Shown in pieces: positions 45,226 to 58,103 of a stretch of DNA of 64,000 nucleotides (position 1 is the stretch's first letter; every line of letters begins with the position of its first letter). A program made the position numbers and the translations under genes. Location: contig NZ_CP151726.1 in the NCBI RefSeq assembly GCF_038443385.1, positions 4,030,001 to 4,094,000 on the forward strand, in the 5' to 3' direction. Below the pieces are notes generated by a model. It did no database searches. It was given only the letters and a program-made list of their open reading frames with translations, and was not told the origin of the DNA. The DNA comes from Stieleria varia. GTDB taxonomy: Bacteria; Planctomycetota; Planctomycetia; Pirellulales; Pirellulaceae.

Positions 45226-45232
45226 CTTGCAT

Positions 45233-45306
45233 GCCCAGGTACGCCAATCGGCAGAGCGACTCGGCTTAAACCCGAGTGTTTGCAGGTTCGATCCCTGCTC
45301 TGGGTA
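45233..45306 (+). tRNA. tRNA-Leu(TAA) with short variable arm
   Basis: Anticodon arm CTCGG-CTTAAAC-CCGAG, acceptor GCCCAGG/TCTGGGT, T arm GCAGG-TTCGATC-CCTGC. The variable region is only about five bases, whereas bacterial Leu tRNAs are class II with a long arm. Confidence 0.88.
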
Positions 45307-45332
45307 CTCGAACCCGACAACCGTTACTTCCG

Positions 45333-46157
45333 CTATTCGTAAGGATGTGGATAGCCGAGGCAAATGTTGCCGCCCACCCAAGCGTGGCCATCGGACCAGA
45401 CCGAGATTTGAGAGGACTTAAGTGGATGACCCAGCCAGGCTACGAGCCGGTCAAGCACCGCTCGTAGCCGTTGTGGACGCGGGAAAGGGAGTCCGCCAAT
45501 CGTGGTGATCTTGTAGGATCTCGATGTCAAATGCACGATCATATCAACGCTTGAATGAAATTCATCATCTGCGGCCAGCTTGCGACCTAAAAGCTTTTCG
45601 GATCTGCGAATCGATTCCTTCATGTCTTCGGCAAGCACCTTGTGCAACTCTTGGCGAATCGCTTCCGATTCGTCGTCGGCGGGCAACTCTTCCGACTGAT
45701 TGGAGTCGAGCCACGCGTTCAACTCTTTCCGTTTTTGCGCCAGTGGTGCGACACGTTTGGGAAGACGCTTGAACCCAGACGATTCATCCACTTCGCGTTC
45801 ATCGAGATCTGGAATGGACGATTTTCGGCGCGTCCACCTTAGTAGGAAATCAGCAAAGTTAACCCCAGCGATGGAGGTTCCTCCTTCGCTTTCGCAGTGA
45901 ATGATGGCAGGCGAATTGCGAGTTTGAAACCAGAAGGCGACAAAGCCCCCGTCACCCAGTCTCAAAAAAGGGACGACGCGGTCCGCTGGGTCAAATCCCA
46001 GCAAGTCCTTCGGGGCAGTGTACTTCACTGCGAACCAACCTAGCTCTCCCAGCTGTGATTGGCGACAAACGTCAACAAACACCTTGAATGAGGATGGAAG
46101 GCGATACTTTGCGGCAACTTTCAGCTCGATTCCCCGAACGTTGATTTCATATTTCAT
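45333..46157 (-). CDS. Hypothetical protein inside the tRNA array (SUKH-like)
   Basis: 274 residues from ATG 46157 (MKYEINVRGIEL). A strand-rich N-terminal half with KDLLGFDPADRVVPFLRLGDGGFVAFW and IAGVNFADFLLRW recalls SUKH/SMI1-KNR4 immunity-type domains; the C-terminal half is helical and charged. It is antisense to the array and splits it into two blocks. The resemblance is by pattern only. Confidence 0.55.
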   Translation of the reverse strand: MKYEINVRGIELKVAAKYRLPSSFKVFVDVCRQSQLGELGWFAVKYTAPKDLLGFDPADRVVPFLRLGDGGFVAFWFQTRNSPAIIHCESEGGTSIAGVNFADFLLRWTRRKSSIPDLDEREVDESSGFKRLPKRVAPLAQKRKELNAWLDSNQSEELPADDESEAIRQELHKVLAEDMKESIRRSEKLLGRKLAADDEFHSSVDMIVHLTSRSYKITTIGGLPFPRPQRLRAVLDRLVAWLGHPLKSSQISVWSDGHAWVGGNICLGYPHPYE

Positions 46158-46335
46158 GACGTTCCATCGCTTTGTCGATGCTAAGGAGTTTTGACTTGGA
46201 ATTGTCTGTCGAAGAAACCGACAGCGATGAACAATCAGCAGAGTGACTCGTCGCTTCGAGAGTGAAATGTAAGAGTTTGGATCATTCAACGCGAACCAAT
46301 TCTTCGATCATTCATCCTTATTTTACGTCATTCAT

Positions 46336-46406
46336 GGGGCGCTCGTCCAACGGGAAGACGTCTGTTTTGCAAGCAGAAAATCGGGGTTCGATTCCCCGGT
46401 GCTCCA
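46336..46406 (+). tRNA. tRNA-Ala(TGC)
   Basis: Acceptor GGGGCGC/GTGCTCC keeps the G3-U70 wobble that identifies Ala; anticodon arm TCTGT-TTTGCAA-GCAGA; T arm CGGGG-TTCGATT-CCCCG. Confidence 0.93.
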
Positions 46407-46422
46407 CTTGGTTGATTCAAAC

Positions 46423-46496
46423 GGCTCGGTAGGCAACCGGAAGACCACTTTGGCTTAGAACCAGAGATGCTGTGGGTTCGAATCCCACTCGAGCTA
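46423..46496 (+). tRNA. tRNA-Leu(TAG) with short variable arm
   Basis: Anticodon arm TTTGG-CTTAGAA-CCAGA; acceptor GGCTCGG/TCGAGCT; T arm GTGGG-TTCGAAT-CCCAC. Variable region about six bases, unlike class II Leu. Confidence 0.88.
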
Positions 46497-46509
46497 CTGC
46501 AAACATCAT

Positions 46510-46583
46510 ACGGGTGTAGTGTCCAACGGCCAGCACGATTGGTTTCCAACCAATTAGTCTCGGTTCGAATCCGAGTGCCCGTA
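46510..46583 (+). tRNA. tRNA-Gly(TCC)
   Basis: Acceptor ACGGGTG/TGCCCGT; anticodon arm ATTGG-TTTCCAA-CCAAT; T arm CTCGG-TTCGAAT-CCGAG. Confidence 0.93.
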
Positions 46584-46596
46584 CTTTCAATAAATC

Positions 46597-46669
46597 GTCC
46601 TCGTGGAGCAGCGGAGTGCTCGCTTGCCTGTCACGCAAGAGGTCGTCGGTTCAAATCCGATCGGGGACG
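46597..46669 (+). tRNA. tRNA-Asp(GTC)
   Basis: Acceptor GTCCTCG/CGGGGAC with G73; anticodon arm CTTGC-CTGTCAC-GCAAG; T arm GTCGG-TTCAAAT-CCGAT. Confidence 0.93.
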
Positions 46670-46685
46670 CTTTTTCAATCCAAAC

Positions 46686-46764
46686 GGCGCGGTACGCAAA
46701 CCGGTAAAGCGGCGGAGCTCAAACCTCCGTGAAATGTCTGTGGGTTCGATTCCCTCCCGCGCTA
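46686..46764 (+). tRNA. tRNA-Leu(CAA), intermediate variable region
   Basis: Anticodon arm CGGAG-CTCAAAC-CTCCG; acceptor GGCGCGG/CCGCGCT. The variable region is about ten bases and does not form the usual class II stem. Confidence 0.88.
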
Positions 46765-46774
46765 CTTTCAGAAC

Positions 46775-46873
46775 AGCCAAGTGGTGGAACTGGTAAATAC
46801 GCGATTCTCAGACGATCGTGCACCGCATCCCAGAAGACGGTGCGGCGTGCGAGTTCGACTCTCGCCTTGGCTA
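46775..46873 (+). tRNA. tRNA-Leu(CAG), class II
   Basis: Acceptor AGCCAAG/CTTGGCT; anticodon stem CGATT/GATCG with loop CTCAGAC; a long variable hairpin GCACCG...CGGTGC. The only Leu tRNA of the array with normal class II form. Confidence 0.9.
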
Positions 46874-46889
46874 CTTTTCAAAACATCAT

Positions 46890-46959
46890 TGCAGGTGCGA
46901 CAGGTGTCCAACTGACCGTCATAAGGTCGGTGTGCTCGGCTCGATACCGAGACCTGCAA
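46890..46959 (+). tRNA. tRNA with CAT anticodon (Met or Ile2)
   Basis: Acceptor TGCAGGT/ACCTGCA fully paired; anticodon loop GTCATAA on GACC/GGTC; T loop CTCGATA begins with C. Fully paired end indicates elongator Met or lysidine-type Ile. Confidence 0.85.
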
Positions 46960-46977
46960 CTTCAGTGCAAACAACAC

Positions 46978-47046
46978 CGCGGATGGGCCAGTGCTCAGCC
47001 AGGCCTCATAAGCCAGGACCGCCGGGTGCGACCCCCGGATCCGCTA
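46978..47046 (+). tRNA. tRNA-Met(CAT), initiator-like
   Basis: The first acceptor pair is a C-U mismatch over GCGGAT/ATCCGC, and three G-C pairs (GGC/GCC) flank the loop CTCATAA, both hallmarks of initiators. T loop TGCGACC. Confidence 0.8.
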
Positions 47047-47058
47047 CTTAAATAATGG

Positions 47059-47400
47059 CTAACGCCAGCAGACGCGACCATCAAAGATTGAAAGCTGAGT
47101 GCAGTCGAATGAACAGAGTGTGTCTTCTAGTGCTTCAAATCGAATACCAGGTGCAACGATTTCATCCATGATCTTTTCCGCTTCGCTCATCAACTTATCG
47201 AAACGATCGGGTTCTTTGTCTTCGTTCACCTCTCCAGCCTGTGCACTTGCTTCATACTCGCGATTGAACAGGGTTTCCGTCTCAGCGAAGGCTTCAGCCG
47301 GCTCAAAGGGTTCACACGGGGCTTGGTCGTCAAATCCAACATATCCTAGAAGTTTACTACCACGGTAGATCTCGTAACGTCGTTTCAACTTGATCTCCAA
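47059..47400 (-). CDS. Hypothetical small acidic protein in the array
   Basis: 113 residues. It begins MEIKLKRRYEIYRGSKLLGYVGF, a short strand unit, then becomes acidic and helical with a final IRFEALEDTLCSFDCT. No family recognised. Antisense to the array, like the 274-residue gene at 45.3 kb, suggesting insertion of cargo between tRNA blocks. Confidence 0.5.
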   Translation of the reverse strand: MEIKLKRRYEIYRGSKLLGYVGFDDQAPCEPFEPAEAFAETETLFNREYEASAQAGEVNEDKEPDRFDKLMSEAEKIMDEIVAPGIRFEALEDTLCSFDCTQLSIFDGRVCWR

Positions 47401-47438
47401 TTAGTCACGCGATGGTCTTAGTGTAACGAAATTCAAAA

Positions 47439-47514
47439 GGTCGAGTACGCAAATCGGAAAAGCGACTTGGTCGAGAGCCAAGTGATTTTGCAGGTTCGAC
47501 TCCTGTCTCGACTA
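47439..47514 (+). tRNA. tRNA-Leu(GAG) with short variable arm
   Basis: Anticodon arm CTTGG-TCGAGAG-CCAAG gives GAG but with C instead of the nearly universal U at position 33. Acceptor GGTCGAG/CTCGACT; variable region about six bases. Confidence 0.8.
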
Positions 47515-47525
47515 CTTGGCAAAAC

Positions 47526-47598
47526 GATCGCGTGGTCCAGCGGCGAAGACGTCTGCGTGACATGCAGAAGATCGATGGTTCGATTCCATCCGCGATCA
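47526..47598 (+). tRNA. tRNA-Val(GAC)
   Basis: Acceptor GATCGCG/CGCGATC perfect; anticodon arm TCTGC-GTGACAT-GCAGA; T arm GATGG-TTCGATT-CCATC. Confidence 0.93.
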
Positions 47599-47609
47599 CT
47601 GTTTCACAA

Positions 47610-47680
47610 GGTCTGTAAGTGTTGCGGCAGCACGCGTCTGTGGTATGGACGAAGACCGGGTTCAATTCCCGGACGGACCT
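47610..47680 (+). tRNA. tRNA-Thr(GGT)
   Basis: Acceptor GGTCTGT/ACGGACC with U73; anticodon stem CGTCT/GGACG with loop GTGGTAT; position 8 is A rather than U. Confidence 0.87.
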
Positions 47681-47687
47681 CTGATAT

Positions 47688-47772
47688 GGGCTGGCATGTT
47701 CGCCGAGAAAAAACTCTGCGGGCGACTGGTCCTTGCAAGATCGGTGGGAGGGTTCGATTCTCTTCCGGTCCA
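47688..47772 (+). tRNA. tRNA-Ala(TGC) with enlarged D arm
   Basis: Acceptor GGGCTGG/CCGGTCC keeps G3-U70; anticodon stem TGGTC/GATCG with loop CTTGCAA. The D arm is replaced by a longer stem TCGCC/GGCGA with a 16-base loop that includes six A's. Second Ala(TGC) of the array. Confidence 0.75.
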
Positions 47773-47781
47773 CTCATTGAC

Positions 47782-47871
47782 GGAAGGGCAATCCGATCGG
47801 CGACGGTATCCGGTTGCTAGCCGGGCGAGCATCTTGATGGTGCCTTGAGGGTTCGACTCCCTCTCCTTCCG
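47782..47871 (+). tRNA. tRNA-Ser(GCT), class II
   Basis: Acceptor GGAAGGG/TCCTTCC with G73; anticodon arm CCGG-TTGCTAG-CCGG; long variable arm; T arm GAGGG-TTCGACT-CCCTC. Confidence 0.92.
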
Positions 47872-47883
47872 CTTGTTTGTAAC

Positions 47884-47955
47884 GGCTCGATGGTGAAACG
47901 GACATCATCTCTGGCTTCTAACCAGAAGTTCCGGGTTCGATTCCTGGTCGGGCTA
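47884..47955 (+). tRNA. tRNA-Arg(TCT)
   Basis: Acceptor GGCTCGA/TCGGGCT; anticodon arm TCTGG-CTTCTAA-CCAGA; T arm CCGGG-TTCGATT-CCTGG. Confidence 0.92.
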
Positions 47956-48026
47956 CTGCCGAATTTCGCGGTCACGTTGGCTGCCGGCATCATTCCGCTT
48001 GTTTGACACTTTTGAAAGGCATTGTC

Positions 48027-48833
48027 ATGAGCATGCAGAGTATCGAGCGTCAATTCACGCGGATTGGTGCTCGAGCAAAAGTCCACCCTCCGATCGTCAG
48101 ACGCTGGGGAACGCCTCCTGAAGTCTCGATCGACATCGGCAACGACGCCGAGGGCGAGTTCTTCGATCTTTCGATTCAGCCCAAGCTGGTCGCTGAAACG
48201 CAAGTCATCGACGTTCAGCCTTCAATGCGGCACTTGCTGTTGATGTCGCGTCAAAACGACGGAAAGCACAAGTTCCTGTGCGGACACGATGAGCGTCACT
48301 GGTTCGTCGCGGCCGTTCCTGAGCGAGTTTCGGTTTCATCGGTGAAGACAGCGTTCGACGCGCTCAAGCCAACTGCGGTGCGAGCACTCGAAAACCGTCT
48401 CAGCGTGAAGCCGCGAAAGCGAAATCGTCGACGAAACGCAGCGTTCATTCGTCAAGGTGAATGGTTCTTCGTTCCTGTCGAGAACCCGAGCTTTGTCGAT
48501 GAACGACTGGTGCTGCGAAACGAGCCGATTGCACGTGGCGGTGGAAAGCCGCATATGTGCGAAGAGGTCGTTCGGCAGGGAGGACAACTGGTTTACGTCA
48601 GCAACCAATACCCAAACGGTGTGACCGAGATGCAGCGTCGACAAATGATAAGTCGTCGACCTGAACTTCGTCATCTCCACTGGGTGGCTCAACGACGAAA
48701 CCCAAGTGTGTTCGTTCGCGGACGAGTGCGTCATCCGGATCACAAGACGATCATCTTAAACGGATGGCACCAAGTCATGATGAACACAGAAAACGAATCG
48801 CTTGCAATGCGACACGTCGCATTCATCGATTAA
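48027..48833 (+). CDS. Hypothetical basic protein inside the tRNA array
   Basis: 268 residues from ATG 48027, with AAAGG ten bases upstream. Clearly basic in the middle (residues ~125-142, RLSVKPRKRNRRRN) and C-terminal part (RRQMISRRPELRHLHWVAQRR), which suggests nucleic-acid binding. Beta-rich N-terminus with DLSIQPKLVAETQVIDV. It is sense to the array and lies between Arg tRNA genes, so it is a candidate RNA-binding partner of the array products. Family not recognised. Confidence 0.65.
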   Translation: MSMQSIERQFTRIGARAKVHPPIVRRWGTPPEVSIDIGNDAEGEFFDLSIQPKLVAETQVIDVQPSMRHLLLMSRQNDGKHKFLCGHDERHWFVAAVPERVSVSSVKTAFDALKPTAVRALENRLSVKPRKRNRRRNAAFIRQGEWFFVPVENPSFVDERLVLRNEPIARGGGKPHMCEEVVRQGGQLVYVSNQYPNGVTEMQRRQMISRRPELRHLHWVAQRRNPSVFVRGRVRHPDHKTIILNGWHQVMMNTENESLAMRHVAFID

Positions 48834-48930
48834 GGAAAGGCTTTGGGCTTTAGACTTTGGACATTAGGGGTGAATCCTCCAAGAGGATCGACCTATAGCC
48901 CAATGACAAAAGCCTATAGCCTCATTTCAC

Positions 48931-49003
48931 GTCCTTGGAGTGTGCCGGATTCGCACGCGACTTTGCGGAGGTCGTAGACCAGGTTCGATTCCTGGCGAGG
49001 ACG
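48931..49003 (+). tRNA. tRNA-Arg(GCG)
   Basis: Acceptor GTCCTTG/CGAGGAC with G73; anticodon stem CGACT/GGTCG with loop TTGCGGA; T arm CCAGG-TTCGATT-CCTGG. GCG is rare for Arg in bacteria, which usually read CGC with inosine. A near-copy with a lengthened anticodon arm lies at 50203. Confidence 0.85.
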
Positions 49004-49014
49004 CTTAGTTACAT

Positions 49015-49086
49015 GACTCGCGGGTGTGCTGGATAGCATGACAGTCTTCGAAACTGTCGGACCAGGTTCGATTCCTGGGCGGGTTA
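49015..49086 (+). tRNA. tRNA-Arg(TCG)
   Basis: Acceptor GACTCGC/GCGGGTT; anticodon arm ACAGT-CTTCGAA-ACTGT; T arm CCAGG-TTCGATT-CCTGG. Confidence 0.93.
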
Positions 49087-49089
49087 CTT

Positions 49090-49206
49090 GCCTCGGCGGC
49101 GTTAGGAGCGAGCGAACAAATGGATCCTGCGTTCACCATTCGAAATGATCGCTCAGATTGTCCAGATCTGACAGCTCGTACTTCACATCAACTCCGCTCC
49201 GAGGCT
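49090..49206 (+). ncRNA. Structured RNA candidate ahead of slipin
   Basis: GCCTCGG and CCGAGGC close a 117-base region that also holds an internal GAGCGA/TCGCTC stem, a GAAC/GTTC stem and a CAGAT/ATCTG hairpin with a seven-base loop. It sits in tRNA-gene rhythm right after tRNA-Arg but lacks a T loop. It ends about 55 bases before the slipin start, so it may be a tRNA-derived ncRNA or a leader structure. Confidence 0.4.
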
Positions 49207-49261
49207 CCATTCACTTAACCATTTCAAATCATCAATCACGCAAACCGACAGGAGGTGCATC

Positions 49262-50137
49262 ATGATGATTAGCGGTGCTCGACGAGAGTTCATCATTAAG
49301 GACACCCACCGCGGTTTGTACTACGAAGACGGTAAGCTGACGAAGATCCTCGAGGCGGGACACTACAAGATCCCGCCACGCAAGCGATTCTTCAAGAAGC
49401 TACCGACCGTCGAGTGCATGCTGGTCGATGTTCGTGAGCGAGAGCTGACGATCAAGGGCCAGGAAATCTTGACGGCTGACAAGGTGGCTATCCGAGTCAG
49501 CATTCTGGTGCAGTTTCGCGTGACCGATCCGAAGGCTGCGCTCCACACGGTCGATAGCTTTGAGGACCGACTTTACAGCGACGTTCAGCTTGCGGCGCGA
49601 CGTTCTCTTGCGTCGATGACGCTGGAGGAAATTCTCACCAACCGAAACCGGCTGAGTGAGGATATCCTGTCTGACGTCACCGAATCGGCCGGCAGCTACG
49701 GCGTGACGATAAGGCGCGCTGACGTGAAGGACTTGATCTTCCCGGGAAACTTGCAGGAGATCATGAACCGCGTTCTGGCAGCCGAGCGGCACAGCGAGGC
49801 TCAACTGGTCGAAGCGCGCACGCGTGCGGAAGTCGAGCAGATTGAGGCGGAGTCTCGAGCGGAAATTACGCGCCGTGATGCCCAGGCGGATGCAGAAGCA
49901 CGACGACTGCGTGAACAGGCCGAAGCGGAAGCGACGCGTTCGAAGGCGGAAGCCGAAACGCAAGCGTACGCTCTGCGCGTCAAGGCAGCCGAGGCACTGG
50001 AAGGCCACCCGGTACTGCTGCGACTGGCCGAACTCGAAACGCTGCGTGAACTGGCCAAGAACGGCAACGCTCGACTGTACTTCGGTATTGACCGAGTCAG
50101 CCTGAACGGAACGGATTCAGGAAAGCACGATTCGTAA
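49262..50137 (+). CDS. Slipin/SPFH (band 7) protein
   Basis: 291 residues, strong ribosome site (AGGAGGTG) before ATG 49262. The SPFH domain covers residues ~20-190 (DVRERELTIKGQEILTADKVAIRVSILVQF, LTNRNRLSEDIL), followed by a long charged coiled coil of R/E/A repeats (residues ~195-250). No N-terminal membrane helix is evident, unlike classical stomatins. Slipin-type genes have been noted within bacterial RNA-repair operons next to Ro60 or RtcB genes; here it lies inside the tRNA array 2.8 kb before Ro60. Likely a ring- or scaffold-forming partner. Confidence 0.88.
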   Translation: MMISGARREFIIKDTHRGLYYEDGKLTKILEAGHYKIPPRKRFFKKLPTVECMLVDVRERELTIKGQEILTADKVAIRVSILVQFRVTDPKAALHTVDSFEDRLYSDVQLAARRSLASMTLEEILTNRNRLSEDILSDVTESAGSYGVTIRRADVKDLIFPGNLQEIMNRVLAAERHSEAQLVEARTRAEVEQIEAESRAEITRRDAQADAEARRLREQAEAEATRSKAEAETQAYALRVKAAEALEGHPVLLRLAELETLRELAKNGNARLYFGIDRVSLNGTDSGKHDS

Positions 50138-50202
50138 AGGAAGCGGATCGTGAGTCCAAACTAAGCAGGACCGGTGACCCGTTCATCGGTTCTGCGATTT
50201 TC

Positions 50203-50300
50203 GTCCTTGGAGTGTGCCGGACAGCACGCGACGTCGATGCTGAGGTTCGCTCCGCGATGGCGCGAAGGTCGTAGATCAGGTTCGATTCCTGGCGAGGGCG
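50203..50300 (+). ncRNA. tRNA-Arg-derived RNA with lengthened anticodon arm
   Basis: Acceptor, D and T arms are nearly identical to tRNA-Arg(GCG) at 48931 (GTCCTTG, GTGTGCCGGA, AGGTTCGATTCCTGG). In place of the nine-base loop region between CGAC and GTCG stands a ~33-base insert that folds TTCGC/GCGAA. The anticodon loop is therefore gone or interrupted. It may be an intron-containing tRNA or a tRNA mimic related to the elements at 51.3-52.8 kb. Confidence 0.65.
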
Positions 50301-50330
50301 CTTAGCAGGTACAATTGCCACTAATAAACT

Positions 50331-50855
50331 ATGGAGACCGATACGCACACAGAAACGATTGCTTGCCTCGACGTGGGGTACACGGAAGCTGCGGCGAGAG
50401 CTGCATGCGTTGTCATTGACGACTGGCGCGCTTCGATCCCAGTCGCCGAGCATGTGGCGATGATCCATGAGGTGAAGGAATACCAGCCCGGCGAGTTCTA
50501 CCGTCGAGAGCTGCCGTGCATCCAAGCGGTGCTCGCGAAACTCGATCAACCACCGACTTGCATCGTGGTCGACGGCTACGTTTGGCTGGATGGAAATGGC
50601 CGTCCCGGACTTGGAGCTCATCTCTATGAGACGCTCGATCGCAAGATTCCCGTCATCGGTGTGGCGAAGAACCCGTTCAAAGATACGGACCACGCCACTG
50701 AGCTTCGCAGAGGCACGAGCGATCGCCCGCTATTCATCACGGCGGTCGGACTCCCGATCGCCCAAGCAGTCTTGAATATAGACGCCATGCATGGCCCATA
50801 TCGACTGCCAACGATTTTGAAACGAGTCGATCAATTAAGCCGTGGTGAAAATTAG
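50331..50855 (+). CDS. nfi: Endonuclease V family protein
   Basis: 174 residues. Family landmarks: ACLDVGY (first catalytic D), YQPGEFYRRELP, VVDGYVWLDGNGRPGLGAHL and IGVAKNPF, then RPLFITAVG and the final MHGPYRLPTILKRVDQLSRG. Shorter than typical EndoV because the N-terminal extension is absent. EndoV cleaves next to inosine in DNA or RNA; in human and some bacterial members RNA, including tRNA with inosine, is the substrate. Its place inside a tRNA array makes a tRNA-related role attractive. The start lies 30 bases after the Arg-derived RNA. Confidence 0.9.
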   Translation: METDTHTETIACLDVGYTEAAARAACVVIDDWRASIPVAEHVAMIHEVKEYQPGEFYRRELPCIQAVLAKLDQPPTCIVVDGYVWLDGNGRPGLGAHLYETLDRKIPVIGVAKNPFKDTDHATELRRGTSDRPLFITAVGLPIAQAVLNIDAMHGPYRLPTILKRVDQLSRGEN

Positions 50856-50934
50856 CGAACCCAATCGCTCGCCATGAGTCTTAATCGTCAACTTGTTTCC
50901 ATCCGGAGCCAACCGCAGATTTAGGAGAGGACCA

Positions 50935-50988
50935 ATGCGATACGAACACGAGCACAACGAAGACCACAGCTTTCGAGCCGATGAGTAA
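50935..50988 (+). CDS. Possible 17-residue leader peptide
   Basis: ATG 50935 is preceded by a perfect AGGAGAGG and opens a 17-codon peptide rich in H and E ([13 protein letters not shown]). Its stop overlaps the SEC-C peptide start, suggesting translational coupling. Confidence 0.35.
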
Positions 50989-51148
50989 ACGACGTCGCGG
51001 TTTCCCTTCGGAAACTCACGTCAAAAGTGGAGTGCGAGTCATCCAAGGCGATAAGCAGCTCGAAGAAAAGCTTGGACGCAATGATCCCTGCCCATGCGGC
51101 AGCGGACAACGTTTCAAACGGTGTTGTCTCAAATCGGGCAACTTTTGA
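50981..51148 (+). CDS. SEC-C motif micro-protein
   Basis: 55 residues from ATG 50981. A basic start (MSKRRRGF) is followed at residues 32-49 by [19 protein letters not shown], a perfect SEC-C zinc motif (C-x-C-x8-C-C) as found at the ends of SecA and many small zinc proteins. It consists of almost nothing else. Between endonuclease V and tRNA-Cys. Possibly an RNA- or ribosome-binding adaptor; the function is not known. Confidence 0.8.
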
Positions 51149-51218
51149 TGGCTCCAATCGAGACGACTACTTTTAGGGACAAAAATTGAAACAAGTTCGC
51201 TGTCGCGGCGGACAACAA

Positions 51219-51289
51219 AACGCTGGAGCCAGATGGCCAGGCAACCGGCTGCAACCCGGTCGAAGTGGGTTCGACTCCCACCAGCGTTT
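51219..51289 (+). tRNA. tRNA-Cys(GCA)
   Basis: Acceptor AACGCTG/CAGCGTT with U73 as Cys requires; anticodon arm ACCGG-CTGCAAC-CCGGT; T arm GTGGG-TTCGACT-CCCAC. Last conventional tRNA of the array. Confidence 0.92.
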
Positions 51290-51298
51290 CTGACGAAT

Positions 51299-51362
51299 CG
51301 ACTGCAGGCTTGGATTACATATTGCTAATGTGAACCATCTGAGCTGTTACCTCGTCGATCCG
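51299..51362 (+). ncRNA. tRNA-mimic/Y-RNA-like element 1 (minimal)
   Basis: 5' leg CGACTGCAGGCTTGGATTACAT, 3' leg AACCATCTGAG...TCGTCGATCC. The legs pair through GGAT/ATCT. Between them are only 12 bases (with ACAT/ATGT able to pair), so this copy has no tRNA body. It shows that the legs exist as an independent module. Confidence 0.6.
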
Positions 51363-51379
51363 TCGCAAACCAAAAATGC

Positions 51380-51544
51380 TTGAACTGCCGTTTGGGTCTA
51401 CATATGAGGAGCCTAAGGTAGCGATGTCGGGCGACCGGCTAGTGAACGTCACCGGAGTCTCTCGCAGACAAAGGTGCCAGTCAACGATCGGCGAAAGCCG
51501 AAAACGGACGCTCCTAAACGACTCAACAACCACTTCGTTCAAGC
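51380..51544 (+). ncRNA. tRNA-mimic/Y-RNA-like element 2 (non-tRNA insert)
   Basis: 5' leg GAACTGCCGTTTGGGTCTACAT and 3' leg GACTCAACAACCACTTCGTTC pair through GGGTC/GACTC (five pairs). The insert of about 120 bases is closed by AGGAGC/GCTCCT and contains CCTAAGGTAGCGA, identical to a conserved 23S rRNA segment, plus a CGGC-GAAA-GCCG tetraloop hairpin, rather than tRNA arms. Confidence 0.5.
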
Positions 51545-51555
51545 ACAACACACGG

Positions 51556-51673
51556 CGACTGCCAGTTTGGAATACATGGATTAAGACACGTGCCTGCACG
51601 AGAAACGGGTTCGAGTCCCGTCCAGCATCGCTGGTCGTCTATCTGATGCTTCTGAACGACGACCTCGTCGCCA
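51556..51673 (+). ncRNA. tRNA-mimic/Y-RNA-like element 3
   Basis: Legs pair through GGAA (51569-51572) and TTCT (51650-51653). The body has a perfect T arm (ACGGG-TTCGAGT-CCCGT, 51605-51621) directly followed by an acceptor-like stem CCAGC/GCTGG closed by a three-base loop, so it cannot have free acceptor ends. No D arm. An extra hairpin CGTG-CCTG-CACG precedes the T arm. Confidence 0.7.
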
Positions 51674-51685
51674 ACCATACACGAT

Positions 51686-51817
51686 TGACTGCCAGGTTGG
51701 ACTACATCACGCGACGGTCGCGGGTTCGAATCCCGTCAAAGCGAACCTTTGGCTCGCTTTGTAGCTCAGTGGGTAGAGCATCGAACTGTCTGATCGATAA
51801 CTTCGTTGATCGTTTTT
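51686..51817 (+). ncRNA. tRNA-mimic/Y-RNA-like element 4
   Basis: Legs pair through GGAC (51699-51702) and GTCT (51788-51791). Order inside: T arm (GCGGG-TTCGAAT-CCCGT), acceptor 3' strand CAAAGCG, 11-base linker, acceptor 5' strand CGCTTTG (perfect 7-bp match), D arm (GCTC/GAGC with GGG in the loop). TCG (51781) pairs with CGA (before the variable loop), continuing the anticodon-stem position. Ends GATCG then TTTTT. Confidence 0.78.
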
Positions 51818-51867
51818 ACAAATCCATGAGCGAAGGCCCAACGTGGCCCGCTCAAACAAGACACGAC

Positions 51868-51997
51868 TGACTGCCGAGTTGGAGTACATCGACTGTTAAT
51901 CGAAGGATGCGGGTTCGAGTCCCGTCGGTTTGGCCAAGCCGAGCCGTAGCTCAATTGGGAGAGCTTATCTCTGACACATCACTTCGTCAGCCGTTTT
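51868..51997 (+). ncRNA. tRNA-mimic/Y-RNA-like element 5 (Asn-derived)
   Basis: Legs pair through GGAG and CTCT (51881, 51969). The 3' half carries a full Asn anticodon loop (CTGTTAA), variable loop, T arm, acceptor strand CGGTTTG, G73 and an encoded CCA; after a short linker comes CGAGCCG (seven pairs including two G-U) and the D arm. Order is circularly permuted with respect to a tRNA. A U-rich tail follows the 3' leg. Confidence 0.75.
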
Positions 51998-52136
51998 CAT
52001 TTTCATTCGCTCGTGAGAGTGCCCATGTGTGTGCAATTTAAATTCTTCGCCATTACGAAATCCGGCGCCGAGTAATCGGACGTTGAGCGAAGACTGTCTG
52101 CACATTCAAAACTACTTTCATCAAGCGATATGAATC

Positions 52137-52502
52137 ATGGAAACCACAACCGAAACCAACTTCGCGACGAACGTGGCTACACGCATCGCCGGAGAAGACA
52201 TCAAACGAGGAGACTACGTCACAGCGTTGACGGAGATCTACGAACTGCCATCGTTCCTGTGGTGCTGCACCAGCAGCACGCTTTCGGCGGACGAACCGGT
52301 TCGATCGGTCTACAAAGCCGGTGAAGCTGGCCGGCCCAGCAAAATCATCGCCGTCTGCTTGCCGTTCGTTTACACCAAGCAAGCGAAAGGCGGTACCGCG
52401 ATCTTCGACATCCGCAAACACCAGCTTGTCCGGCTCGACCGAGACACTGGCCGCAAGGTGTGGAAGCGATTGCGGAAGAACTTGAAGAAGAAACGGAAAT
52501 AA
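52137..52502 (+). CDS. Hypothetical basic protein between tRNA-mimic elements
   Basis: 121 residues between elements 5 and 6, sense orientation. It starts METTTETNFATNVATRIA and ends in a strongly basic helix (VWKRLRKNLKKKRK), and the centre is a small beta-rich unit (GDYVTALTEIYELPSFLWCC). The basic tail suggests RNA binding. No ribosome site better than an A/G-rich stretch. Unknown family; position argues for a partner of the mimic RNAs or Ro60. Confidence 0.6.
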   Translation: METTTETNFATNVATRIAGEDIKRGDYVTALTEIYELPSFLWCCTSSTLSADEPVRSVYKAGEAGRPSKIIAVCLPFVYTKQAKGGTAIFDIRKHQLVRLDRDTGRKVWKRLRKNLKKKRK

Positions 52503-52516
52503 CAAACGCACACGAT

Positions 52517-52666
52517 CGACTGCCGATTCGGAGTACATGCTTCAGGAGCCGGGTGTCGTGGGTTCGAGTCCCACCGGCCCAACTGTTTATCAAAGCAGGG
52601 CCGTAGCTCAGTGGTAGAGCACCGTAAACCCTCTGATCACAACTTCGTCGATCGCGTTTTGTTTTT
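52517..52666 (+). ncRNA. tRNA-mimic/Y-RNA-like element 6 (Leu-CAG-like)
   Basis: Legs pair through GGAG/CTCT (52530, 52631). 3' half: GC, loop TTCAGGA, stem strand GCCGG, variable GTGTC, T arm GTGGG-TTCGAGT-CCCAC, acceptor strand CGGCCC. 5' half after a 16-base linker: GGGCCG, D arm GCTC/GAGC, A, CCG. Joining CCG to GC makes a perfect five-pair anticodon stem CCGGC/GCCGG with anticodon CAG. Tail GCGTTTTGTTTTT. Confidence 0.78.
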
Positions 52667-52701
52667 CCAAAGCTGCATCACAACCAAGAACCGGACACAT
52701 T

Positions 52702-52809
52702 CGACTGCCGGAGTGGAGTACATGGCTACCCAGGTTCGACTCCCGGTCGGCCCGCTGACTTGATTTCAATCGGGCCGGATCTCTGCCCACACCTTCATCG
52801 AATGTTTTT
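52702..52809 (+). ncRNA. tRNA-mimic/Y-RNA-like element 7, adjacent to Ro60
   Basis: Legs pair through GGAG (52715-52718) and CTCT (52781-52784). Body: T arm (CCAGG-TTCGACT-CCCGG, one mismatch) and acceptor CGGCCCG/CGGGCCG, 7 perfect pairs closed by a 16-base loop; the D arm is missing. 3' tail ATGTTTTT. The Ro60 gene begins 82 bases later, the classic position of a Y RNA gene. Confidence 0.75.
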
Positions 52810-52818
52810 ACTTCGCCG

Positions 52819-52874
52819 TAGTGGATCTTGTTAAAGGTTCCCGGCTGCTAGGATGTTTAACAACATCCACTACA
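52819..52874. repeat. REP pair between the mimic RNAs and Ro60
   Basis: GTAGTGGATCTTGTTAAAG and GATGTTTAACAACATCCACTAC, the right unit with the ATG/CAT variant core. It is immediately upstream of the Ro60 ribosome site. Confidence 0.85.
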
Positions 52875-52890: not shown

Positions 52891-54585
52891 ATGGCAAATA
52901 AGTCTTTGTTCTCAAGCATCACGAGCGTTCTACCACGAGCAACCACCGTCAACGAAGCCGGAGGTCCAGCGTACAAGTTCCCGGCGAAGCATGCGCTCGC
53001 GCAGCTTGCGGCTACCGGCACGTTCGGAAACGTGTACTACGCAACGGCCTCGGATCAGCTTGACCAACTGCGAAAGCTGATCGACGAAGTCGACGACAAC
53101 GAGTACCTGGCGAAGCTGGCGGTTTACTCACGTGAGCGTGCTTACATGAAGGACATGCCGGCAGCATTGTTGGTCACCCTGTCGACTCGCGACACGGCGC
53201 TAATGCACAAGGTCTTTGACCGAGTCGCCGACAACGGCCGCGTTCTGCGCACGGTGTTCCAGATGGTTCGCTCGGGCCAGTTTGGTCGCAAGGGCCTGTC
53301 GTCTTCGCTTCAGCGTGCGTTCCAGCGTTGGCTGAACGAGGCTTCGGTGGGCAAGCTGCTGTCGGCTTCGATCGGTAACGATCCAAGCCTGCGTGACGTG
53401 TTGCGAATGGCTCGACCGACGCCGAAGGACAACGTGCGACGCGCGCTGTTCGGTTGGTTGACTGACAAGGAAGTCGACAAGTGGGCTCCGGCGACGGAAG
53501 CAGACTTGCCGACCGAGGTTCAGTCGCTCTGCGCGTTCCGTGCTGCGGAGACCGAAGAGGCTCAAGCGTTGATCGCTGGCGAGTTGGTCGTTCGTTGGGA
53601 CTTGCTGGCCGACGCGGCCAAGGGTCCGGTCGTGTGGAAGGCAATCGCCCGCCAGATGGGACCGCAGGCACTGCGCATGAACCTGAACACGCTGTTGCGT
53701 CACGACGTTTTCCAGAATGGCAACAAGCCTGACAACGAGATGATCGACTACGTTGCCGGCCGCATCGCGGATCCGGAGGCGATCCGACGTTCACGTCAGT
53801 TCCCGTACCAGTTCTTGGCGGCGTACCTGAACGCTGCGGATGAAGTTCCACACAAGATCAAGTCGGCGTTGCATGACGCGGCGGAGATCGCATGTGGAAA
53901 CATCCCGCAGCTACCGGCGCCGGTCATCATCGGTCTGGACACGTCTGGATCGATGGGATGCTCGGTAACTGGTTTGCACGGCCGAGGCCGCGCGTCGAAG
54001 ATGCGTTGTGTCGACGTCGCCGCGTTGTTCGCCGCAGCGATCCTGCGTCGCAACCCGAACAGCGTCGTCATTCCGTTCGATACGCAAGCCTACGACCTGT
54101 ATGGAAAGGGCGCGAAGATCGATTCAAGCGATTCGATCCTGAGCCTGTCGGCACGACTGTCGAAGTACGGTGGCGGTGGAACGGATGTGTCGTTGCCGTT
54201 GCGTGTTGCAAATGGCGAATGCGAGGCCAACAAGCGTTACGCAAAGCGTACGTTTGCTGGAATCGTCCTGGTCAGCGACAACGAAAGTTGGATCAACTCG
54301 GGACGTGTCTACGGATACGGCCGAGGCGGTTCAACTGGCGTCATGACCGAATGGGAGAAGTTCAAGAAGATTCAGCGCGGACACGGCATCGCCGATCCCA
54401 AGTTGGTCTGCATCGACATCGCCCCGTACGGTAACACGCAAGCACCAGAGCCTGATGGTAAGGGTGGGCGCCAGGACATCCTGAACATCGGAGGCTTCAG
54501 TGACGCGGTCTTCAACGTCGTTAGCAACTTCCTTGAGTCCGACACCGACCGCTTCGTCCGCGAGGTCGAAGCCGTTGAGCTGTAG
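52891..54585 (+). CDS. rsr: Ro60/TROVE-domain RNA-binding protein (Rsr)
   Basis: 564 residues with a strong AGGAGG site eight bases before ATG 52891. The TROVE helical-repeat ring spans residues ~20-335 ([52 protein letters not shown]), followed by a von Willebrand A domain whose MIDAS motif D-T-S-G-S-M is intact at about residue 350. Bacterial Ro60 binds Y RNAs on its outer surface and misfolded or 3'-single-stranded RNAs in its hole, and teams with exoribonucleases such as PNPase. It lies directly behind seven Y-RNA-like elements and 220 bases ahead of kptA, with two terminators in between. Confidence 0.95.
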
Positions 54586-54643: not shown

Positions 54644-54775
54644 CGTAGTGGATCTTGTTAAAGATCTCTGGATACTGAAACGCCCGTGACGGAAATCTCT
54701 GTCGCGGGCGTTTTTTTGTAGTGGATCTTGTTAAAGATCCCTGGATACCAGGATGTTTAACAACATCCACTACGT
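54644..54775. repeat. REP units alternating with a duplicated terminator
   Basis: REP at 54645-54666, then a second copy of the rsr terminator, then a REP pair 54719-54774 (GTAGTGGATCTTGTTAAAGATCC ... GGATGTTTAACAACATCCACTAC). About 74 bases (terminator plus REP) are directly duplicated. Confidence 0.85.
54678..54717 (+). terminator. Intrinsic terminator of rsr, copy 2
   Basis: Same stem AACGCCCG...CGGGCGTT with TTTTTTT, differing from copy 1 at two positions that stay compatible with pairing. Arose by the local duplication together with the REP unit. Confidence 0.85.
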
Positions 54776-54806
54776 CGGCATGCGTGAACTTTCTAGAATA
54801 TTGAGC

Positions 54807-55361
54807 ATGGCTAGCAACAACAAACTCGTCTCCACCAGCAAGTTCCTCAGCTTGGTCCTTCGGCATCGGCCTGAAGTGATTGGCGCAAAGCTGGACGCTG
54901 AAGGTTGGCTCTGCATCGACGAGTTGATTAGCCAGGCAAACGCTCATGGACAAACACTCACGCTGGAGTTGCTCCACGAACTGATCGCCACGAACGACAA
55001 GAAGCGTTTCGCCTTGAGTGAGGATGGCTTGCGAATCCGTGCCAGCCAGGGGCACTCGGTCTCCGGTGTCGAACTCAACCTCGAACAGAAGACGCCTCCC
55101 GAGATTCTCTATCACGGAACGGTCGCTGCCTTCCTCGACAGCATTCGAGCCACCGGCCTGCAAAAGCGATCACGCCACCATGTCCATCTTTCACCCGATG
55201 AAGAAACCGCGACAAAAGTCGGCTCGCGAAGAGGCATGCCCATCATCCTGCGAGTCGCAGCCGAAACCATGCATCGTGACGGCCACCAATTCTGTCTTTC
55301 CGCCAACGGAGTCTGGCTCGTCGACGCCGTGCCACCGTCCTACCTGACTTTTCCGGAATGA
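54807..55361 (+). CDS. kptA: RNA 2'-phosphotransferase (Tpt1/KptA)
   Basis: 184 residues from ATG 54807. N-terminal LSLVLRHRPEVIG is the family's RHxP block, RIRASQGHS the second conserved R..QGHS box, LYHGT the NAD-binding turn, and RHHVHLS the third. All catalytic positions of Tpt1 seem present. The reaction uses NAD+ to remove a 2'-phosphate from an RNA splice junction, giving nicotinamide and ADP-ribose-1''-2''-cyclic phosphate. In fungi it finishes tRNA splicing; the natural bacterial substrate is unsettled. Its neighbours handle exactly the co-substrate (PnuC, NadR) and the product (ADP-ribose hydrolases). Confidence 0.95.
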   Translation: MASNNKLVSTSKFLSLVLRHRPEVIGAKLDAEGWLCIDELISQANAHGQTLTLELLHELIATNDKKRFALSEDGLRIRASQGHSVSGVELNLEQKTPPEILYHGTVAAFLDSIRATGLQKRSRHHVHLSPDEETATKVGSRRGMPIILRVAAETMHRDGHQFCLSANGVWLVDAVPPSYLTFPE

Positions 55362-55478
55362 TTGGCTGATGGCAAACTTTGAGGTTTCCTGGGTGATAAA
55401 GATGAACGTTCTGCTATCTGCTTTGCTCGGAAACGATCGTGTCTACGTCTTTACCTGCATGCTAGTCGGTGGTCCATC

Positions 55479-56063
55479 ATGATGGCCTGGATTGAACTTG
55501 CTGCGACGGCGTTCGGATTCCTTTGTGTCGTCTTCACGATCGCTCGGAGCGTCTGGTGTTGGCCAACAGGCTTGGTTCAGGTCTTCCTTTTCATCTTTGT
55601 TTTCTACGACGCAAAGCTCTACTCTGATTTGCTTCTTCACGTGGTGTACGTGTTCCTGCAGTTCTACGGTTGGTACTACTGGACGCGTCCCAAGGCAAAT
55701 CCTGAATCATTGATCATCCAAACCTTGACGCTCCGCGAGTTCGTCTCTTGGTGCATCATCGCGGGGGTAGGTACGATCGGATTGGGGTGGTCGATGGCAC
55801 AGTGGACCGACGCCTCTTTGCCATATCCCGACGCCTTCACGACAGTGACAAGTCTGGTTGCACAGTTCCTGCTTGCTCGACGCCAACTGCAGAACTGGAT
55901 CTTATGGATCTGCGTCGATATCGTAGCGATCTGGGTATACTTCACGAAAGAATTGAACGCCACGGCGATGCTTTATGTCGCGTTTCTCGTTCTTGCCTGC
56001 ATCGGTTTGGTGGTTTGGAACCGAAGGCTGTCGCAACAGCGAACCGGAAGGATAGCGACGTGA
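55479..56063 (+). CDS. pnuC: Nicotinamide riboside/mononucleotide transporter PnuC
   Basis: 194 residues with six or seven hydrophobic helices. The W-P-T-G segment in helix 2 and YGWYYWTRP are typical of PnuC, which imports nicotinamide riboside by facilitated diffusion trapped by phosphorylation. The stop overlaps the NadR-like start (GTGA), so import and phosphorylation are translationally coupled. Inner membrane. Confidence 0.93.
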   Translation: MMAWIELAATAFGFLCVVFTIARSVWCWPTGLVQVFLFIFVFYDAKLYSDLLLHVVYVFLQFYGWYYWTRPKANPESLIIQTLTLREFVSWCIIAGVGTIGLGWSMAQWTDASLPYPDAFTTVTSLVAQFLLARRQLQNWILWICVDIVAIWVYFTKELNATAMLYVAFLVLACIGLVVWNRRLSQQRTGRIAT

Positions 56064-57061
56064 TCAATACGGGATTAACGCTGGGCAAGTTTGCTCCACT
56101 ACACCGCGGTCATCAATTCGTTATCGAACGTGCGATCGCCGAAAACGACAACGTGGTTGTTATCATCTACAACGCGCCGGAAGTCACCCGCATCGATCTT
56201 GAAACGCGAGCTGGTTGGATTCGTTCGCTATATCCAGATGTTGAAGTACTGCTCGCGCGTGACGGCCCGACCGTTGTTGGTAAAGCGCCTGAAATCACGC
56301 AGCTCCACGACAGCTATTTACAGCGACTTTTGACGGGGCGGCGGATCACTCGTTTTTACAGTAGCGAGTTCTACGGCGAACACGTCAGCCGAGCATTGGG
56401 CGCGATTGATTGCCGGGTCGACGAAGTCCGGAAGCGAGTTCCGATTTCTGGAACTGCAATTCGGTCAGATCCTTTCCGATATAGGGACTACATGAATCCA
56501 CTTGTCTACCGAGATCTTGTCACCAAGGTCGTCTTTCTGGGCGCTCCATCAACCGGCAAGACAACGCTGGCCCGTCACATGGCCGACCAGCTATCGACCG
56601 CCTGGGTGCCTGAGTATGGGCGTGAATTCTGGGAGAAGAATCATATCGATCGCCGTCTTTCGCTAACTCAGCTAGCTGAAATCGCCATGGGTCACTGCGA
56701 AAAGGAAGATCAGCTTGTGCAGGACGCTAATAGATTCTTGTTTGTTGATACGGACGCTACCACGACTTACCAGTTCTCGTTGCATTACCACGGCCGGGTC
56801 CACCCAATCGTGGCTGAGATGGCCGCACAGTGCCATGAGCGGTACCAGGTCTGTTTTCTTTGCGAAACAGACATTCCCTACGAAGACAGTTGGGATCGCA
56901 GCGGCGAAGTTCATCGAGCGTTCTTCCAACAGCAGATTGAAGCGGATCTGGTTGCTCGCGGAATCGAGTTCACGAGGCTGAGTGGCGATTTAAAGACCCG
57001 GACCGAGCTTGTTGTGAAGACGCTCAAAGCGATTGAACATGAGCCCTTCTATGCTGACTGA
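56060..57061 (+). CDS. nadR: NadR-like NMN adenylyltransferase and ribosylnicotinamide kinase
   Basis: 333 residues from GTG 56060. Residues ~1-165 are the nucleotidyltransferase half (TLGKFAPLHRGHQFVIERA with H-x-G-H, and ISGTAIRSDP); residues ~172-333 are a P-loop kinase (VVFLGAPSTGKTTLARHM, then VPEYGREFWEK and DTDATTTYQFS). There is no N-terminal HTH, unlike E. coli NadR, so it is an enzyme only. It should turn nicotinamide riboside imported by PnuC into NMN and NAD. Confidence 0.93.
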   Translation: MINTGLTLGKFAPLHRGHQFVIERAIAENDNVVVIIYNAPEVTRIDLETRAGWIRSLYPDVEVLLARDGPTVVGKAPEITQLHDSYLQRLLTGRRITRFYSSEFYGEHVSRALGAIDCRVDEVRKRVPISGTAIRSDPFRYRDYMNPLVYRDLVTKVVFLGAPSTGKTTLARHMADQLSTAWVPEYGREFWEKNHIDRRLSLTQLAEIAMGHCEKEDQLVQDANRFLFVDTDATTTYQFSLHYHGRVHPIVAEMAAQCHERYQVCFLCETDIPYEDSWDRSGEVHRAFFQQQIEADLVARGIEFTRLSGDLKTRTELVVKTLKAIEHEPFYAD

Positions 57062-58103
57062 ACCAATCGTTGGATGCATTCTGGGGACTGCGGTCGGAGA
57101 CGCGTTAGGGCTGCCCTATGAAGGCGTTTCGCCAAAACGGGCTGCCAAGCTGCTTGGTCCGCCGGATCGGTACCGATTCTTCTTTCGTCGCGGAATGATC
57201 TCCGACGACACCGAACACACTTGCATGGTCGCTCAATCGTTGATTGACGCGGGTGGCGACGTTCCAAAATTCACACGTAGTTTTGCGAGACGACTGCGTT
57301 GGTGGATACTGGCGTTACCGGCGGGGGTTGGCAAAGCGACGGCGAGATCCGGAATCAAATTGTGGCTCGGGGCAAGTCCCGAGAAGGCTGGCGTGTTCTC
57401 AGCCGGGAACGGTCCCGCCATGCGTGCAGCGATCTTCGGCGCTGCGCTGGATGATGTTCCGTCAATACTGAGCTTCGTTCGGGCCTCCTCGCGGCTGACC
57501 CACAGTGACCCGAAAGCCGAGTGCGGTGCAATCGCCGTGGCATTGGCAGCCAAACACTCACGCGACAATGAAACCGTCGATGCGAACCTTTGGCTCGACG
57601 AGGTTGTCGATGCGGTGGGTGAAGCTGAATCGGAATTGATTGATTTGCTCCGCAAAGCTATTCAAAGCGTAAACGTCGGCGAAATAACCAAGACGTTCGC
57701 AAAATCGCTTGGCCTGGATCGGGGCGTGACCGGATACACGTACCACACCGTCCCGGTCGCAATCCACGCATGGCTGTCCAATCCGAAAGACTTTCGCAAG
57801 GCGGTCTTGAGCATTATCGTGTGCGGAGGCGACGCGGACACGACGGCCGCGATCGTCGGTGGCATCGTGGGCGCGGGGGTCGGGCAAGCAGGCATCCCGG
57901 GCGAATGGCTCGACGGCATCTGGGAATGGCCGCGTAGCGTCGCTTGGATGCAGCGCCTCGGTGAAGCTCTGGCCGATTCGCTCGATGGTGATAAATCGGT
58001 GAAGTCGCCCACCGCCAATCCAATCGCCGTACTTCTCCGCAATCTTCTGTTCCTGTTCATCGTTCTCTTCCACGGCTTCCGCCGACTTGCTCCACCTTAC
58101 TGA
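57039..58103 (+). CDS. ADP-ribosylglycohydrolase (DraG/ARH family)
   Basis: About 350-355 residues; ATGs at 57039 and 57051 both overlap the nadR end. Metal-binding motifs are GDALGLPYEG, ISDDTEHTCM and the C-terminal GGDADTTAAIVGGIVGA, as in active DraG/ARH enzymes. A C-terminal hydrophobic helix (LLRNLLFLFIVLFHGF) may attach it to the membrane. ARH enzymes remove ADP-ribose from protein or RNA ends, or hydrolyse related conjugates. Co-translated with nadR and the M28 peptidase. Confidence 0.93.
   Translation: MSPSMLTEPIVGCILGTAVGDALGLPYEGVSPKRAAKLLGPPDRYRFFFRRGMISDDTEHTCMVAQSLIDAGGDVPKFTRSFARRLRWWILALPAGVGKATARSGIKLWLGASPEKAGVFSAGNGPAMRAAIFGAALDDVPSILSFVRASSRLTHSDPKAECGAIAVALAAKHSRDNETVDANLWLDEVVDAVGEAESELIDLLRKAIQSVNVGEITKTFAKSLGLDRGVTGYTYHTVPVAIHAWLSNPKDFRKAVLSIIVCGGDADTTAAIVGGIVGAGVGQAGIPGEWLDGIWEWPRSVAWMQRLGEALADSLDGDKSVKSPTANPIAVLLRNLLFLFIVLFHGFRRLAPPY

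Follow-up and report, generated by a model that had tools for sequence, protein, structure and literature searches.

What is encoded in the tandem repeats that lie between a tRNA gene and the Ro60 gene of Stieleria varia? The stretch analysed here, called the window throughout, comprises 64,000 nucleotides (positions 4,030,001 to 4,094,000 of contig NZ_CP151726.1, assembly GCF_038443385.1) of a 9.72 Mb genome that consists of a single contig. Bacterial Y RNAs are known tRNA mimics, and a first-pass annotation of the window had proposed that seven Y RNA copies stand beside Ro60, each with a different tRNA body on constant legs. We recognize seven predicted genes for Y RNAs, with covarying legs in common and different heads, and consider it likely, at a probability of roughly 0.6, that the legs are a common Ro60 handle carrying interchangeable look-alikes of translation RNAs. 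Judged from sequence, five of the heads have tRNA-like T arms, one is a fragment of helices 69–71 of 23S rRNA and one is a small loop only, which means that the proposal of a tRNA body in every copy failed for two of them: unit 1 amounts to a minimal stem-loop, and the 23S fragment in unit 2 had been overlooked. The reading is carried by the covarying legs, by arms like those of tRNA, by the homology between unit 2 and 23S rRNA, by the relatives of that unit in several families, and by the Ro60 gene downstream.

The seven units run leg to leg in one orientation (51292–52805) between tRNA-Cys and the Ro60 open reading frame (ORF; coordinates in Table 1), and share a 5′ leg of the form ..GAC-TGCC..GGANTACAT and a 3′ leg of the form ..TCT...CTTC-GTC.., as had been described. 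Copies of the 5′ leg are found at 51300, 51383 (with two mismatches), 51557, 51687, 51869, 52518 and 52703. The exact leg pattern has six matches genome-wide, all of them inside the array, and a pattern search of the same genome found two other places at one mismatch from it. The adjacency to Ro60 stands, with a distance of 86 bases from the end of unit 7 to the start of the gene where 82 had been given. A possible eighth unit at about 52003–52130 was seen by eye only and missed by the unit search, and is not claimed. Both leg helices vary in their letters and maintain their pairing. The inner helix pairs GGAT/ATCT in unit 1, GGGTC/GACTC in unit 2, GGAA/TTCT in unit 3, GGAC/GTCT in unit 4 and GGAG/CTCT in units 5–7, so that every pair listed by the first-pass annotation was recovered. 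The outer helix is ATCGAC/GTCGAT in unit 1, where it is lengthened by GACG/CGTC, TGCTTGAAC/GTTCAAGCA in unit 2, GGCGAC/GTCGCC in unit 3, ACGATTGAC/GTTGATCGT in unit 4, CGATCGAC/GTCGATCG in unit 6 and ACATTCGA/TCGAATGT in unit 7; that of unit 5 contains one mismatch (A-C).

Relatives of the array were collected from 60 upstream stretches, made up of 28 of 34 named Ro60 loci (L052, L064, L067, L071, L072 and L074 were excluded from the unit search), 31 stretches from our G-numbered genomes, one of which belongs to the organism's own broken Ro60 copy, and the window; some stretches repeat one contig (e.g. L111/L047 and L133/L065). Among named organisms, the nearest in Ro60 are Rhodopirellula sp. 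JC639, Stieleria sedimenti and further members of the Pirellulaceae, and leg-bearing arrays also precede Ro60 in related genomes, as would be expected if the first-pass annotation was right about their nature. No match was found in viral contigs (exact pattern) or phage records. The search returned 268 candidate units, of which 254 had a good outer helix and 246, from 51 stretches, were distinct (14 were dropped for a weak outer helix and eight as identical); 27 of the 246 have no assigned type, and the 23S-type unit of L118 was missed by the search and found by the covariance model introduced below. With their own legs, the 246 units form on average 4.54 of the five outer pairs (157 are perfect), against 2.66 of five when legs are swapped with other units (7% perfect) and 2.60 of five when the swap is made within the same locus. 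The legs thus covary. Single-sequence folding gave z values of −0.8 to −3.0, which are not decisive by themselves, and the proof of leg pairing therefore comes from the comparison across units. Two marks of a bacterial Y RNA, a basal stem made from paired 5′ and 3′ ends, here covarying in 246 units, and a gene close to Ro60/Rsr, are present.

Seven copies had been thought exceptional; within this group arrays hold up to 11 units (L112). A short first unit resembling unit 1 is present in many relatives, and unit 1 itself gives a weak match to the Rfam YrlB model (28.8 bits, E 0.003). A T-run (TTTT) is found no more than 16 bases 3′ of 115 of the 246 units, compared with 3.6% of random places, and the median spacing to the next unit is 9 bases without TTTT and 37 bases with it. 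This pattern of spacing and T-runs suggests that transcription likely ends at some units, and that others are likely cut from a longer RNA.

The tRNA-like heads agree with the earlier description of a T arm and acceptor hairpin in four to five copies and a D arm in three. A T arm is found in five of the seven window units (3–7) and a D arm in three (4, 5 and 6), such that units 1 and 2 have no T arm and units 3 and 7 no D arm. Across the sample, 145 of 246 units have a T arm and 76 a D arm, and in 133 of the 145 the acceptor hairpin is closed by at least six of seven pairs, as it is in unit 4 by CAAAGCG (51737–51743) with CGCTTTG (51755–51761). The acceptor strands come in 68 different forms and pair at 6.66 of seven positions with their own partner against 3.97 of seven when swapped between units; the swap is the fair test here, since a shuffled strand reaches six of seven acceptor pairs in 45% of cases. 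The order by which YrlA is recognized, that is the permuted succession of T arm, acceptor hairpin and D arm, is found in units 4, 5 and 6. These same units match the Rfam YrlA model (48.3 bits, E 2.6e-9; 31.1 bits, E 2.4e-4; and 49.5 bits, E 1.2e-9, respectively), and many units in 18 further sources do so as well, the best at 58.4 bits. The anticipated kinship to YrlA (RF02553) was thus upheld as to the matches and not as to membership, in that all of these scores lie under the gathering score of 69 bits, and because of this units 4–6, which look like YrlA and would be expected to act alike, are labelled ‘YrlA-like’ instead of being filed under RF02553. The YrlA matches, the arrays of relatives and the covariation support the central claim of the first-pass annotation, namely that a Y RNA array carrying permuted tRNA modules adjoins Ro60.

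Two further observations concern the heads of relatives. In eight upstream arrays (L042, L044, L046, L069, L109, L112, L115 and L118) there is a head type that combines a T arm with a motif near GTCCAGTGAGTCTGG and may be a tRNA-like fold of native order, joined through its acceptor; folding was not conclusive and the type is noted as a lead only. Palindromic repeats (of the AAGTTTGAAGT.. type) replace whole heads or occupy the acceptor loop in L041, L046, L048, L107 and L108 and in units 6 and 8 of L042, as if heads and loops tolerated insertion.

The head of unit 2 is of another kind. Its body starts with ATGAGGAGCCTAAGGTAGCGATGTCGGGCGACC, the counterpart of which in the organism's own 23S rRNA is ATGAGGGTCCTAAGGTAGCGAAGTTCCTTGTCGGG, and when nine sequences of the unit-2 type were aligned to 23S rRNA alongside 300 shuffles each, eight beat all shuffles (L043 did not). 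Relatives keep more of the 23S sequence, namely TAACTATGACGGTCCTAAGGTAGCGA in L066 and L041 and CGTAACTATGACGGCCCTAAGGTAGCGA in L164. The 5′ part of the type matches 23S rRNA right after the loop of helix 69 (H69) at p <= 0.01 in 38 of 39 sequences, and we regard the homology of this part as firm at the level of sequence. The 3′ part, for which TACGGACGGCCGTAA in L116, L156 and L158 is an example, was compared with the segment right before the H69 loop (AAACGGCGGCCGTAA) in a focused test of 17 bases that was repeated with 1000 shuffles: it matches at p <= 0.01 in 12 of the 39 sequences and at p <= 0.05 in 21, where 0.4 and 2 would be expected by chance, and the window unit reaches p 0.023. It is likely from these alignments that the 23S piece is circularly permuted and opened at the H69 loop, and that the Y legs are joined at the opened loop and the natural ends shut by a new hairpin. 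This looks parallel to the tRNA-like units and YrlA, which are opened at the anticodon side. Rfam offered no family for unit 2 or for its relatives in 18 sources, and in cmscan the large subunit (LSU) rRNA model (RF02541) matched neither unit 2 (E <= 5) nor those relatives (E <= 1); the local 23S homology rests instead on the alignment and on R1, a covariance model of unit-2 bodies without their legs.

The structure of the unit-2 type was derived from 12 diverse relatives using RNAalifold with no structure supplied, which gave the leg helix, an H69-like closing stem, a hairpin like that of helix 71 (H71), a GUCU/AGAC hairpin and a closing hairpin. In this 12-row alignment 95.3% of cells are paired and both partners vary in 19 of the 39 pairs, with a covariation score of 0.399 against 0.169 in shuffles (0 of 500 as high; slid controls <= 0.08). 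A larger alignment of 43 distinct rows, biased towards the model and with three genuine 23S sequences and two weak ones among them, scored 0.485; double-sided changes affect 25 of its 29 pairs (185 cells) and occur in all seven helices. Searching 61 sources, R1 found 21 strong places, the next best being the organism's own 23S rRNA (22.4 bits, E 0.007). Over 397 genomes of the class, at least 60 have a match at E <= 0.01 and at least 42, in eight families, at E <= 2e-6; these are lower bounds, as the filters were strict and each genome had few of its candidates scored. Weak R1 matches only were found in 18 genomes, and the two that were fetched (G539 and G535) are LSU rRNA by Rfam. A short pattern that does not occur in the organism's own 23S rRNA was found, with one mismatch allowed, in five of 392 genomes of the phylum, all with unit-2 type RNAs on Y legs. 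Among 15 fetched stretches of the unit-2 type, 11 have Ro60 at no more than about 1.2 kb; L183 and L189 stem from genomes covered before as L066 and L070. No Ro60 was found near the unit-2 type RNA in L177, L180 and L187, and L182 stops at a contig end.

Table 1. Predicted RNA units of the array and the genes next to them (window coordinates)
Feature	Position	Strand	Basis or remarks
tRNA-Cys, final gene of the tRNA array upstream	51219..51290	+	
Unit 1, minimal Y RNA (predicted)	51292..51364	+	legs and small hairpin; directly after tRNA-Cys
Unit 2, predicted Y RNA, head a likely rearranged 23S helix 69–71 fragment	51377..51545	+	legs, alignment to own 23S, covariation
Unit 2, 23S-like body	51404..51516	+	model R1, 121.6 bits; the window row is among the 12 building R1
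Unit 3, predicted Y RNA	51554..51672	+	T arm 51605–51621, no D arm; short hairpin CCAGC/GCTGG by eye
Unit 4, YrlA-type (predicted)	51681..51813	+	T arm 51720–51736, D arm 51764–51779, then T-run
Unit 5, YrlA-type (predicted)	51863..51994	+	T arm 51909–51925, acceptor hairpin, D arm 51949–51964, then T-run
Small ORF, 121 amino acids, basic C-terminus	52137..52502	+	inside the array, between units 5 and 6
Unit 6, YrlA-type (predicted)	52513..52654	+	T arm 52558–52574, acceptor hairpin, D arm 52606–52620, then T-run
Unit 7, predicted Y RNA, no D arm	52697..52805	+	T arm 52730–52746 (4/5 pairs), acceptor-like hairpin, then T-run
Ro60/Rsr with TROVE and vWA domains; probable partner of the units	52891..54585	+	Pfam TROVE and vWA_Ro60 above cut-off

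The Ro60 protein is divergent, scoring 69.4 bits with the NCBIfam Rsr model against a cut-off of 900, and its closest solved structure is Rsr (PDB 2nvo, E 9e-13). An inverted repeat, GTAGTGGATCTTGTTAAA / TTTAACAACATCCACTAC, flanks the gene at 52818–52873 and about 54646–54773 (the second place by eye), and a second, broken Ro60 piece (77% identity, one stop) is located elsewhere in the genome (G000:C1:4295419-4295712), with no units found nearby. In all 14 named loci where tRNA-Cys is upstream of Ro60, a unit 5′ leg follows within about 10 bases; L050 and L066 have no tRNA gene within 10 kb upstream. The tRNA array of the window (43338–51290) contains 29 tRNA genes by ARAGORN, and in many relatives the Y RNAs are likewise preceded by an array of this kind. 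Those of its tRNAs that Rfam lists (n = 24) have a median of 49.9 bits against 63.6 for 46 tRNAs elsewhere in the genome, as if the array were a relaxed second tRNA set. Between its last tRNA-Arg and tRNA-Cys are genes for an SPFH/Band 7 protein (49262–50137) and endonuclease V (50331–50855), matched in four and two of the 34 named loci, respectively. The small ORF within the Y RNA array has relatives in 21 of 73 stretches searched and no match in Pfam or NCBIfam; it may encode a partner protein. Directly after Ro60 (54753–58103) come genes for Tpt1 (RNA 2′-phosphotransferase, at 54753), PnuC, NadR and an ADP-ribosylglycohydrolase. Tpt1 was matched in four of 34 named Ro60 loci (L041, L051, L065 and L072) and in none of 17 fetched stretches, and the other three in neither set. 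An island for RNA repair and nicotinamide adenine dinucleotide (NAD) metabolism as a general part of the system was dropped, as Tpt1 accompanies Ro60 in close relatives only.

How such an array might work is suggested by YrlA. A review (PMC8394870) describes that the YrlA stem tethers Rsr and the tRNA-like head binds PNPase, that the particle promotes the decay of structured RNAs, rRNAs among them, and that tRNA enzymes modify YrlA. A PNPase gene is also encoded in the genome studied here. The legs of the seven units would bind Ro60 and act as its common handle, and the heads would recruit or bias PNPase, as reported for the tRNA-like head of YrlA, or alternatively enzymes involved in the maturation, modification or repair of tRNA and 23S rRNA. 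Different particles could thus act on different translation RNAs, with the 23S head steering Ro60 to 23S rRNA or 50S precursors, or to their quality control. This last step would be in line with the role in 23S maturation that the Ro60 orthologue of Deinococcus reportedly has.

Several results weigh against a common Ro60 handle with a 23S-derived head among its cargo. No units were found at five stretches with a distant or partial Ro60 (L130–L132, L134 and L135), nor at the organism's own broken copy (L137), and the 23S type occurs in 21 of the 60 stretches, some of them cut. The 39 sequences had been picked by a 23S-like word or by the model, so the score of their 5′ parts was not blind. Their 3′ parts were not significant in 18 of 39, and a first, looser 3′-part test (130 bases, gapped) was unconvincing, with 102 of 500 shuffles as good as the window sequence. 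Unit 2 of the window also lacks AAGUUCCU, which in the organism's own 23S rRNA stands between GCGA and UGUCGGG. In L172 and L177, 23S-like RNAs of family f115 stand on different legs that are not of the Y type, and their genomes (G615 and G778) yielded no match to Ro60. Finally, Ro60 was queried in 13 genomes with strong unit-2 hits, chosen in part because no Ro60 had been seen nearby: six were positive, six had no Ro60 match (G615, G778, G558 and G781 in family f115; G764 and G770 in f4) and in G683 the match is remote (26%). The case for a function bound strictly to Ro60 is weakened by genomes that carry 23S-like RNAs but gave no Ro60 match; there, either Ro60 has been lost or overlooked, or the 23S head serves a separate purpose.

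It is in part from these genomes that the main rival explanation draws support. The heads could be decoys for nucleases, toxins or modifying enzymes that act on tRNA and on H69–H71 of 23S rRNA, sequestering or inhibiting them, with Ro60 as a stabilizer only. A role as competitive inhibitor has been proposed for the tRNA-like domain of YrlA (PMC7790460), and the window unit 2, being without AAGUUCCU, would be spared from an enzyme that cuts there. We nevertheless think it improbable, in that a plain sponge would need neither constant legs nor the adjacency to Ro60 seen in 11 of the 15 stretches. Far less probable still is that the 23S likeness is coincidental and the locus a plain YrlA/YrlB gene set: Rfam does match units 1 and 4–6, but 5′ parts resembling 23S rRNA beyond shuffled expectation in nearly every unit-2 type sequence, and a body model that picks true 23S genes as its weak hits, would then be left to accident.

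Two explanations address one kind of head each. Circularly permuted tRNA genes, spliced to working tRNAs with the aid of the nearby Tpt1, would account for the permuted T arm–acceptor hairpin–D arm succession within a tRNA array. This candidate was rejected, and we give it next to no weight, because the units read from the sequence have no anticodon stem or anticodon and end in legs, the acceptor is a closed hairpin, and the same legs also bear non-tRNA heads, the 23S body and the minimal loop; moreover, Tpt1 is rare at Ro60 loci and Rfam calls YrlA. Unit 2 might similarly be a chance capture of rDNA, for instance by a homing element at a conserved 23S site, that is now drifting. Its best-kept stretch lies among the most conserved parts of 23S rRNA, in a region that is also a target of homing endonucleases. 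A drifting fragment would not be expected to show pair-keeping changes on both sides in all seven helices (43 rows), strong covariation in 12 rows, constant legs and strong R1 hits in at least 42 of 397 genomes, and chance capture is disfavoured, with very little probability in our estimate.

The preferred reading, a common Ro60 handle with interchangeable heads, has consequences beyond this locus. That several families of the class have retained a 23S head on the same legs would make the principle one of presenting translation RNAs generally, and one RNA-handling protein would likely deal with several kinds of them. The 23S head would link Ro60 to a specific region of 23S rRNA, and its role is testable by head swap or deletion in one organism. 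A bolder version, to which we give slightly less than even odds, is that planctomycete Ro60 works with modular display RNAs, their heads opened at decoding-centre loops (the tRNA anticodon and 23S H69) and re-closed elsewhere, as a tRNA/ribosome ‘address book’ for quality control; the 23S type would then be the first Y RNA to mimic rRNA, and its relatives in genomes lacking Ro60 a new class of rRNA-mimicking small RNAs. Among the literature matches listed, in their titles and the starts of their abstracts, no rRNA-like Y RNA appears; planctomycete Y RNAs may have been noticed earlier.

Compared with known systems, the array is closest in plan to YrlA, with which it shares legs at both ends, the permuted T arm, closed acceptor hairpin and D arm, and a gene by Ro60, and from which it differs in its seven tandem units (up to 11 elsewhere), in its T-only and minimal units and in scores below gathering. 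Unit 1 resembles YrlB (RF02565) as a short Y RNA without a tRNA domain, although its score is far under the gathering value of 97 bits. The Salmonella rsr-yrlBA-rtcBA RNA repair operon, as described in PMC7790460, likewise combines Ro60 with YrlB-like and YrlA-like RNAs, whereas the neighbour here is a tRNA array; RtcB and RtcA were absent among the 20 window ORFs scanned, and no genome search was aimed at them. With RYPER (Rsr-Y RNA-PNPase) of Deinococcus radiodurans the genome has in common an orthologue of Ro60, units resembling Y RNAs and a gene for PNPase, but such a particle would here be a prediction, and the descriptions of RYPER consulted include no rRNA-like heads. Unit 2 shares with helices 69–71 of 23S rRNA its sequence, the order around H70–H71 and the H69- and H71-like stems, and differs in standing alone on Y legs, in its likely permutation, in the loss of AAGUUCCU from the window copy and in its new closing hairpin. 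It is in this 23S type, for which Rfam reported no family, that the new aspect of the locus appears to lie: as predicted from sequence, it is a family of Y RNAs that bears a novel type of head.

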